Positions 14,974 through 61,338 of a DNA stretch of 64,000 bases are shown here, in pieces. The position numbers and the translations under genes were made by a program. The DNA comes from Oscillospiraceae bacterium (GTDB taxonomy: Bacteria > Bacillota > Clostridia > UMGS1810), in NCBI GenBank assembly GCA_015068705.1, contig SVJZ01000003.1:1-64000 (forward strand), given 5' to 3'. The first letter of the stretch is position 1; the number at the start of each line of letters is the position of its first letter. A model generated the notes under the pieces. It did no database searches and had not been told where the DNA came from. It saw only the letters and a program-made list of their open reading frames with translations.

Positions 14974-15046
14974 CGGGACGCCCGGAGGTCGTCCCCTACC
15001 AAATCGAAAGAATATAATTGTAGGGGCTGGCGTCCCCGACAGCCCG
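14974..15046. repeat. Two class A REP-like units facing each other
   Basis: A minus-strand unit (14974-14999, stem GGGACG/CGTCCC, ends CCCCTAC) and a plus-strand unit (15020-15046, starts GTAGGGG, stem GGGCTG/CAGCCC) lie 20 bp apart, with their GTAG feet facing inward. They occupy the gap upstream of the glycosyltransferase gene. Confidence 0.8.
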
Positions 15047-39035: not shown

Positions 39036-39093
39036 GTAGGGAATGACCTATGTGTCATTCCGGGAGCGGAACGGCACGCAGGCCGTTCCCTAC
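39036..39093. repeat. BIME-like pair of class B REP units
   Basis: Plus-strand unit 39036-39062 (GTAGGG, stem GGAATGAC/GTCATTCC) and minus-strand unit 39067-39093 (stem GGAACGGC/GCCGTTCC, ends CCCTAC), 4 nt apart. The stems differ from those at 1496-1550 at paired positions. Confidence 0.8.
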
Positions 39094-39118: not shown

Positions 39119-39188
39119 GTAGGGGCTGGCGTCCCCGACAGCCCGAATGTGGTTTTGCAATCGGGTCGATGAGGGCATCGCCCCTTAC
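39119..39188. repeat. Class A and class C REP units
   Basis: A plus-strand class A unit (39119-39145, GTAGGGG, stem GGGCTG/CAGCCC) is followed by a minus-strand class C unit (39162-39188, near-palindrome around GATGAGGGCATC, ends CCCCTTAC, a slight deviation from CCCCTAC). Confidence 0.75.
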
Positions 39189-54206: not shown

Positions 54207-54253
54207 GTAGGGGGCGGCTTGTATTTCGGGCTGTCGAGGACGCCAGCCCCTAC
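54207..54253. repeat. REP pair, left half degenerate
   Basis: The minus-strand class A unit at 54227-54253 has stem GGGCTG/CAGCCC and ends CCCCTAC. The left arm starts GTAGGGG at 54207 but its hairpin is lost. Confidence 0.7.
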
Positions 54254-55712: not shown

Positions 55713-55816
55713 TATTTATGTGATGTTTTTAAAAAAACATCACGGGAGAGGCAGATGGTGTCGCAAGGAACCGATTGCGTGCGGATATGTTTAAGACCAT
55801 ATTGGTGAATTTGGTG
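55643..55816 (+). repeat. Duplicated 3' end of ctsR
   Basis: The segment 55643-55709 recurs at 55750-55816 with only a few changes (offset 107 bp). Between the copies lies an A/T hairpin TGATGTTTTT/AAAAACATCA (55721-55742). The second copy runs to a TAG stop that is the start of a REP unit (55816). Confidence 0.8.
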
Positions 55817-55842
55817 TAGGGGCTGGCGTTCCCGACAGCCCG
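55816..55842 (+). repeat. REP unit, class A
   Basis: Starts GTAGGGG, stem GGGCTG/CAGCCC, loop gcgttcccga. It lies directly at the end of the second copy of the ctsR tail. Confidence 0.75.
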
Positions 55843-60139: not shown

Positions 60140-60225
60140 GAGGAAATGTCGGGACGAAAGAGGACGCCGTCCCCTACAGGTTTTGTGCGAATGGGTTGCG
60201 GAACGACACGCAGGTCGTTCCCTAC
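60140..60225 (-). repeat. Two REP units upstream of the RAYT locus
   Basis: Class A variant at 60140-60167 (stem GGGACG/CGTCCC, ends CCCCTAC) and class B unit at 60199-60225 (stem GGAACGAC/GTCGTTCC, ends CCCTAC), both on the minus strand. Confidence 0.8.
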
Positions 60226-60528: not shown

Positions 60529-60555
60529 CGGAACGGCACGCAGGCCGTTCCCTAC
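60529..60555 (-). repeat. REP unit, class B
   Basis: Stem GGAACGGC/GCCGTTCC with loop acgcag, ends CCCTAC, minus strand. It lies between the small orphan gene and the RAYT operon. Confidence 0.8.
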
Positions 60556-60662: not shown

Positions 60663-60836
60663 ATGAAAAAGTTTAAAATTCCGTCTGTTCCACCTACCAC
60701 AAACAAATGTATACGGTTTCCGAACGATATTATTGATGAGGTAGAAAAGGCGATAGAAGGTGAAAACTGTACCTTTACGGCTTTTGTTGTGGAAGCGGTA
60801 AGAGTGGCATTGGAAAATATTGAAGATGAAAAGTAA
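60663..60836 (+). CDS. Ribbon-helix-helix-like protein overlapping the RAYT gene
   Basis: A 57-residue protein preceded by AGAGGTGA. After a basic Pro-rich start (KKFKIPSVPPTTNK), the sequence CIRFPNDIIDEVEKAIEGENCTFTAFVVEAVRVAL fits a short beta strand and two helices, as in CopG/Arc-type DNA-binding proteins or antitoxins. Its stop lies inside the start of the RAYT gene, so the two are translated together. It may regulate the RAYT gene or act as its partner. Confidence 0.65.
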   Translation: MKKFKIPSVPPTTNKCIRFPNDIIDEVEKAIEGENCTFTAFVVEAVRVALENIEDEK

Positions 60837-61338
60837 ATTACCAAAGCGAAAACCGACCAGGTTAAAAGGGTATGATTATGGGGCACCGGGGGCGTATTTT
60901 GTTACGATATGTGTAAAAGACAGAAAAGAATTGTTGTCACAGATCGTAGGGGACGGCGTCCACGACGTCCCGAAAAATGTATTAACGAGCTATGGTAAAA
61001 TTGCAGAAAAGCAGATCAATCAAATGAATGAATTTTATGATTACATTACGGTTGATAAATATATCGTTATGCCAAACCACATACATTTGCTGTTATCAAT
61101 AACAAATGTGGAGTATAATCCGGGCTGCGGGACGTCGAGGACGCCGTCCCCTACAAGTGCAACTGTAGCAAGCTTTGTATCAACATTCAAGCGATTTTGC
61201 AACAAGGAATACGGGGATAACATTTGGCAGCGTTCCTACCATGATCACATTATCCGTGGCGAAAGGGATTACCAAAAAATATGGGAATACATCGACACCA
61301 ATGCGTTGCGTTGGGAAGAAGATTGTTTTTACGTTTAA
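60826..61338 (+). CDS. REP-associated tyrosine transposase (RAYT)
   Basis: A 170-residue Y1 transposase-like protein. The HUH motif lies in VMPNHIHLLLS, and the candidate catalytic Tyr in WQRSYHDHIIRGERDYQKIW; the N-terminal GYDYGAPGAYFVTICVKDRKE is typical. RAYTs cut single-stranded DNA at hairpins with a GTAG foot and are thought to spread REPs. Two such hairpins lie within this gene: 60946-60972 (plus) and 61128-61154 (minus), each 27 bp, reading VGDGVHDVP and GTSRTPSPT in frame. The start is weak: ATG at 60826 or TTG at 60820. No transposon ends are visible. Confidence 0.9.
   Translation: MKSKLPKRKPTRLKGYDYGAPGAYFVTICVKDRKELLSQIVGDGVHDVPKNVLTSYGKIAEKQINQMNEFYDYITVDKYIVMPNHIHLLLSITNVEYNPGCGTSRTPSPTSATVASFVSTFKRFCNKEYGDNIWQRSYHDHIIRGERDYQKIWEYIDTNALRWEEDCFYV
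60946..60972 (+). repeat. REP unit inside the RAYT gene (plus)
   Basis: Starts GTAGGGG, stem GGGACG/CGTCCC, loop gcgtccacga. Exactly 27 bp, in frame. Confidence 0.85.
61128..61154 (-). repeat. REP unit inside the RAYT gene (minus)
   Basis: Stem GGGACG/CGTCCC, loop tcgaggacgc, ends CCCCTAC. Exactly 27 bp, in frame, opposite in orientation to the unit at 60946. Confidence 0.85.

Follow-up and report, generated by a model that had tools for sequence, protein, structure and literature searches.

In the description by Nunvar et al. 2010 (PMC2817692), a RAYT gene always lies between two REPs in inverted orientation; rayT of E. coli likewise is bordered by REPs on either side and contains none. REPs that keep the frame within a tnpA-REP gene have also been reported before. 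According to the main text of Quentin et al. 2018 (PMC6006769), genes of subclass 2.4, which equals RAYT group 4, may hold REPs inserted without frame disruption, generally between HUH and Y and in addition to flanking REPs. The same text gives long REPs and the motifs NH[IFV]H, WQ and YIxNNP for this subclass, and describes it as abundant in Cyanobacteria and Bacteroidetes and occurring also in various phyla. Intragenic REPs and the palindromic elements of Rickettsia (PMC3733652) are further examples of small palindromes inserted in frame in ORFs.

The RAYT genes of Clostridia described here share features with each of these systems. As in the canonical REPtron (REP-rayt-REP, PMC2817692), a RAYT co-evolves with the inverted REP pair that accompanies it; however, the REPs flank the ORF in the REPtron and lie inside it in the Clostridia clade. 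The elements of PMC3733652 are likewise in frame, but the genes that host them are unrelated ones (uvrA, recB etc.) and the sites usually vary, whereas the present ones occupy two fixed sites in the gene of the cognate transposase.

A RAYT gene with two internal REPs

The window, that is, the whole stretch of 64,000 nucleotides analysed here (contig SVJZ01000003.1 of an Oscillospiraceae bacterium), contains a RAYT gene with the following features.

60826..61338, + strand: RAYT / TnpA-REP coding sequence, ATG at 60826, TAA at 61336-61338, 170 aa
60946..60972, + strand: internal REP site 1, GTAGGGGACGGCGTCCACGACGTCCCG, 27 nt, reads VGDGVHDVP, in the loop between beta-1 and helix alpha-A
61078..61086, + strand: HUH motif HIH (H84, H86, numbered from K at 60829), between both internal REPs, invariant in alignments A1 and A2
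61128..61154, - strand: internal REP site 2, GTAGGGGACGGCGTCCTCGACGTCCCG on the - strand, 27 nt, GTSRTPSPT in codons 61129-61155, in a low-confidence loop from the HUH strand to the next helix
61288..61290, + strand: putative catalytic Tyr Y154, YIDTN.. motif, invariant in A1 and A2, equivalent to E. coli Y115 in YIYINP

The predicted protein matched Pfam Y1_Tnp above the cut-off (E 3e-5), and it matched the RAYT equivalog model of NCBIfam, REP_Tyr_transpos, with E 1e-16, yet under the cut-off of that model. Sequence similarity to the ISDra2 transposases in PDB was weak. The top fold match of its AlphaFold model (mean pLDDT 79) was PDB 4er8, which is E. coli RAYT with a bound REP hairpin, and residues H84, H86, Y154 and N158 were unchanged throughout alignments of 19 and 23 members. 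By sequence and fold, the gene is assigned to RAYT (TnpA-REP), with a Y1 HUH transposase core and the putative catalytic Tyr in a Y...N(P) context. No second RAYT was found in its own genome by protein or profile search.

The clade most likely belongs to TnpA-REP subclass 2.4 (RAYT group 4). NHIH and WQ are present in the window protein, and its YIDTNA (YIDTNP in the clade) fits Y...N(P), with T in place of the first consensus N. Long REPs whose stem starts with three G-C pairs are a trait of this subclass and are present in the window gene, and the clade resembles the subclass, as presented in the main text of PMC6006769, in NHIH and WQ, in part in the Y motif, in the in-frame REPs within the gene and in having a variable insertion after the HUH strand and before alpha-C. 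Unlike that main-text description, the Clostridia clade has a second fixed site before HUH, its REP pair is strand-fixed, inverted and concerted, and flanking REPs are usually absent.

Two REP hairpins in opposite orientation had been predicted within the RAYT coding sequence, and both were located exactly where they had been placed. Codon reading confirmed that they keep the frame and encode the two peptides listed above, and the gene indeed carries its own putative substrate inside the ORF. The two units differ by a single base and are both GTAGGG-footed; each folds into a 6-bp stem beginning with GGG/CCC, followed by an internal mismatch and 2 more pairs. The GTAGGGG foot and GGGACG/CGTCCC stem given in the original prediction hold for these units, but are only one among many REP types in the gene family. 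Counting up to one mismatch, GTAGGGGACG has 21 occurrences in the window, where 2.0 +/- 1.4 would be expected. In the AlphaFold model, site 1 forms a turn between two strands, one ending at about residue 40 and the next starting from 49, before helix alpha-A, and site 2 forms the loop 96-108 after the HUH strand, modelled with low confidence. Synonymous recodings of the window gene were equally stable in 96 of 20,000 cases at site 1 and 80 of 20,000 at site 2, and the probability of the exact codons given the peptide was about 4e-6 and 2e-6, respectively.

A small ORF of 57 aa at 60663-60836 (+), of the NCBIfam YlcI/YnfO family, overlaps the start of the RAYT gene by 11 nt. Its close relatives (83-93% identity) adjoin just 4 other RAYTs, which are of a different REP type, once on the opposite strand, and this suggests a recent independent association. 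A conserved operon of this ORF with RAYT was rejected, as the ORF precedes only 5 of 111 RAYTs.

Distribution of internal REPs in Clostridia

RAYT homologues were gathered from the same GTDB family, from GTDB species genomes and by profile searches, first of the genomes of these homologues and then of the class, and were read with their flanks. The class-wide profile search covered 393 genomes of Clostridia and gave a match in 114, the weakest matches not being full-length RAYTs; searches at genus and order level gained no further genomes. The sampling is that of class Clostridia only, and nearly all genomes are MAGs. The query and the profile include the REP peptides, which slightly biases the set towards REP carriers.

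In a first set of 64 full-length genes, 112 of 116 GTAGGG hexamers on either strand fell at the two sites or at close relatives of them, with 51 at site 1 and 59 at site 2, and nearly all of these form hairpins. After near-identical genes were dropped, 110 non-redundant RAYTs remained, of which 79 had site 1, 98 had site 2, 76 had both and 9 had neither. The strand was fixed, site 1 being on the + strand in 79/79 and site 2 on the - strand in 98/98. There were 177 GTAGGG hairpins in the 110 RAYT genes (about 3 per kb), roughly 100-fold above the 0.033 per kb counted with a lenient threshold in about 1.17 Mb of other ORFs of the fetched loci. Two genes of the set (L126, L156) come from one genome without MAG label, Acetivibrio sp. 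MSJd-27, and an assembly artefact is therefore unlikely.

The comparison of homologues that had been proposed, asking whether these segments are insertions or belong to the whole family, showed that the sites are common to the whole clade and ancestral to most of it, and are not a one-off insertion.

Some genes depart from this arrangement. In a side lineage (L152, L157, L232, L240), site 1 is absent and a + REP lies at codon 113-114, after the - REP; the internal - and + REPs of these genes are of two types (GTAGGGAAGGGATTTATCCCTTCC, GTAGGGAATGCATTTATGCATTCC) and stand tail-to-tail. In another gene (L145, genome G036), site 1 now reads GGGGACGTTC..GAACGTCCC and the hairpin of site 2, GTAGGGGACTTGCGCGTTCGTCCC, is imperfect; this gene may have been caught midway through a switch of REP type.

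Constraint on the DNA and concerted change of the two sites

The internal REPs comprise 41 different 8-nt 5′ arms. They encode 50 kinds of peptide at site 1 and 87 kinds at site 2, in two reading frames at site 1 (75+4 genes) and three at site 2 (66/28/4). Because peptides and frames differ, the peptide is not what is kept. In comparison, codons are: where relatives shared an amino acid, they shared its codon at a rate of 0.87-0.98 within the REPs, against 0.50-0.66 elsewhere, in five clades. The same residues in synonymous codons that break the hairpin had been named beforehand as the mark of ordinary protein sequence; the data point the other way, as conserved residues keep the REP codons. 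Stem covariation scored 0.489, compared with 0.157 for shuffled and 0.03-0.16 for slid alignments, in rows selected partly for pairing, which favours structure. Among 51 aligned variants, the two outermost stem-base pairs were G-C in 51/51 and the third in 35/51. A known RNA family was rejected, Rfam matches being sub-threshold only. These data indicate that the internal REPs are under constraint at the DNA level, and that the peptide is not the conserved target.

The two sites also change together. Compared with the reverse complement of site 2, site 1 had a mean mismatch of 2.6 of 24 positions within a gene and of 10.3 between genes, and 0 of 10,000 permutations reached the within-gene match; the permutations ignore relatedness, which the tree argument does not. 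For the latter, a RAYT tree was built without both sites, by a quick method that leaves many weak forks. REP type tracks the protein on this tree. Parsimony gave 23 changes of the stem code at site 1 and 18 at site 2, but joint changes numbered only 24, so that a change at site 2 almost always goes with one at site 1. In the GGGGAGGG clade, the loop bases differ between site 1 and site 2 and each version is kept; the two sites are thus not simply homogenised, which fits one enzyme selecting on two sites better than plain copying from site to site. With position, strand and mutual identity all maintained, the domesticated insertion that had been offered as one possibility is too weak a reading.

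Internal REPs in place of flanking REPs

Where both REPs are internal, no REP occurred within 300 bp in 57 of 71 genes with full flanks. A + REP lay at most 300 bp upstream in 15 of 29 genes without site 1, against 9 of 74 with it (p 5e-5), and a - REP lay at most 300 bp downstream in 7 of 11 genes without site 2, against 4 of 92 with it (p 5e-6). Flanking REPs thus tend to occur on the same side and strand when the internal one is missing and are rare when both are internal, which argues that the internal pair substitutes for the flanking pair. As typical cases, five genes (L234, L235, L239, L244, L246) combine a + REP 66-74 bp upstream with internal site 2, one (L217) combines internal site 1 with a - REP 101 bp downstream, and four (L130, L231, L247, L258) have flanking REPs and none internal. 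Others, e.g. L113, L121, L222, L224 and L155, have lost an internal REP with no visible replacement.

Within 300 bp of the window gene there is a single REP, which is of a different type and lies to one side, and the gene so does not show the canonical flanking pair. An own-type REP lies further upstream, and none was found downstream.

60148..60177, - strand: imperfect own-type REP, GTAGGGGACGGCGTCCTCTTTCGTCCC, upstream, about 650 bp from the window RAYT

Dispersed REPs in the genomes

The genome of the window contains 4 exact copies of the REP type, and 35 sites at most two mismatches from GTAGGGGACGGCGTCC, against 6 for the reversed control; the dispersed GTAG-footed REPs by which a RAYT is recognised are thus present. 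In the 10-kb flanks of RAYT genes, there were 60 REPs of the gene's own type, compared with 4.5 expected from foreign types. Among 40 genomes that lack a RAYT of type GTAGGGCAGGGGCTTGCTCCTGCC, the median copy number of this REP was 0; the 7 genomes that have such a RAYT contain 2-67 copies. In two of these genomes (G027, G033) the internal pair accounts for all copies present, and in G022 a pair of another type is likewise kept without dispersed copies; in G038, 53 of the 67 copies are identical to the internal REP. For a second REP type, enrichment was weak after the internal pair was subtracted (p 0.08), and for a third there was no evident enrichment with a matching RAYT and there were many orphan copies. 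A matching RAYT is often missing where dispersed REPs occur, and the idea that a REP type strictly marks its RAYT was rejected, as it did not hold for the third type.

Some dispersed REPs in G034 and G038 carry about 10 nt of flank identical to the gene (10/64 and 8/64, against 0.07 expected), and doublets in these genomes, such as REP-GAAAATCAATTGAAATGGC-iREP of G038, resemble an internally deleted gene segment. No RAYT-derived flank was seen on other REP types, where just the 23-27 nt REP is shared. A general rule that dispersed REPs carry such flanks was rejected, being true for the G034/G038 type only; outside that type only the REP itself is shared, which does not show copying out of the gene. 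The suggestion that the internal pair may be a template for REP spread is a possibility compatible with these data: some genomes have tens of dispersed copies that match the internal REP exactly, and others have the internal pair only.

The window also holds REPs of types other than that of its RAYT. Those of type GTAGGGAACGRCCTGCGTGYCGTTCC, all on the - strand, lie at 60200-60225, 60530-60555, 1525-1550, 1603-1628 and 39068-39093; no RAYT of this type was found in the own genome, and RAYTs with internal REPs of this type (L144/L158) are known from other genomes. The REP most often found dispersed in the own genome is GTAGGGGCTGGCGTCCCCGACAGCCC, which differs from the internal REP at two bases, with window copies at 1401-1416, 15020-15041, 39119-39140, 54232-54253 and 55816-55837, and no RAYT carrying exactly this form was found in the RAYT set. 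A tandem REP array with a 24-nt spacer and a 48-bp unit was observed at a contig end in G034 (L280).

Possible roles of the internal pair

We lean towards the reading that the internal pair is kept as the putative cognate cis-site of the enzyme, and that it would do the job of the flanking pair from inside the ORF. An inverted REP pair that once flanked the gene would have come to lie in two surface loops encoded by the ORF and would have been maintained for its DNA sequence, the REP-encoded peptides being tolerated by-products in those loops. Such an embedded pair would tie the identity of the substrate to that of the enzyme, and the gene and its specificity would be inherited and transferred together. 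Dispersed REPs may also originate from the pair, which would then be their reserve or seed copy. We infer that the internal REPs could take part in binding, cleavage, seeding or regulation.

A more tentative proposal goes further: the internal inverted pair could be a master copy, from whose coding sequence the enzyme copies or regenerates REPs, as singles or as internally deleted REP-iREP units like the one in G038. If so, a RAYT gene would be a self-contained seed that could found a REP population in any genome it entered, and the same nucleotides would encode both the specificity of the enzyme and its substrate.

The main rival is autoregulation, in which RAYT would bind the hairpins in its own single-stranded gene DNA or mRNA and so limit its own synthesis. 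This would explain why a + REP sits towards the 5′ end, about 50-140 bp upstream of the gene or at about codon 37, with a - REP further down, and it agrees with the complementary distribution of upstream and internal + REPs and with the retention of the pair in genomes without dispersed copies (G027 and G033, and G022 for another type). We nevertheless consider it unlikely, because site 1 is about 110 nt into the ORF and distant from the start codon, in the mRNA the - strand REP gives no GTAG-footed hairpin, and TnpA-REP has been reported to act strand-specifically on ssDNA (PMC8266576).

We rank somewhat lower, as improbable, a tolerated selfish insertion, with REPs re-inserted into two permissive loops, or gene-converted there, from the dispersed pool and having no function for the gene. 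Such an origin is close to the reading in the main text of PMC6006769, in which loop insertions have little impact on activity; the loops are indeed variable or of low model confidence, several frames and peptides occur, and unrelated genes are known to contain REPs in frame (PMC3733652). It accounts poorly for a strand fixed at each site (79/79 and 98/98), for a pair that persists where the genome has no dispersed copies, for the enrichment of about 100-fold over other ORFs and for the scarcity of flanking REPs around genes with both internal ones.

That the REP-encoded peptides are functional recognition loops, the REP sequence and peptide together specifying binding, is very improbable. Site 2 is near the HUH strand, and peptide type follows REP type, though by construction; the same REP family, however, is read in different frames and in reverse orientation to give unrelated peptides, and the variable region lies away from the DNA-binding surface in the main text of PMC6006769. 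Ordinary protein sequence that is palindromic by chance, in favour of which there is nothing except that the units are in frame, is rejected by codon conservation, synonymous recoding, covariation and the matching of site 1 with site 2.

Within the openly licensed literature, what the Clostridia genes add to the main text of PMC6006769 is a site before HUH, a strand-fixed inverted pair whose members evolve in concert, constraint at the codon level and a substitution for flanking REPs, although the overlap with that work may be larger. An internal pair kept as the enzyme's putative cis-site bears on how REPs and RAYTs stay matched in the long term and on how a new REP family is founded. With the substrate pair embedded in the enzyme gene and retained even without dispersed copies, synonymous destruction of the pair offers a clean test system, and the cognate REP of a RAYT can be read directly from its ORF. 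The internal REPs are also a case of strong DNA-level constraint in a bacterial coding sequence, of a kind overlooked by protein-based annotation.
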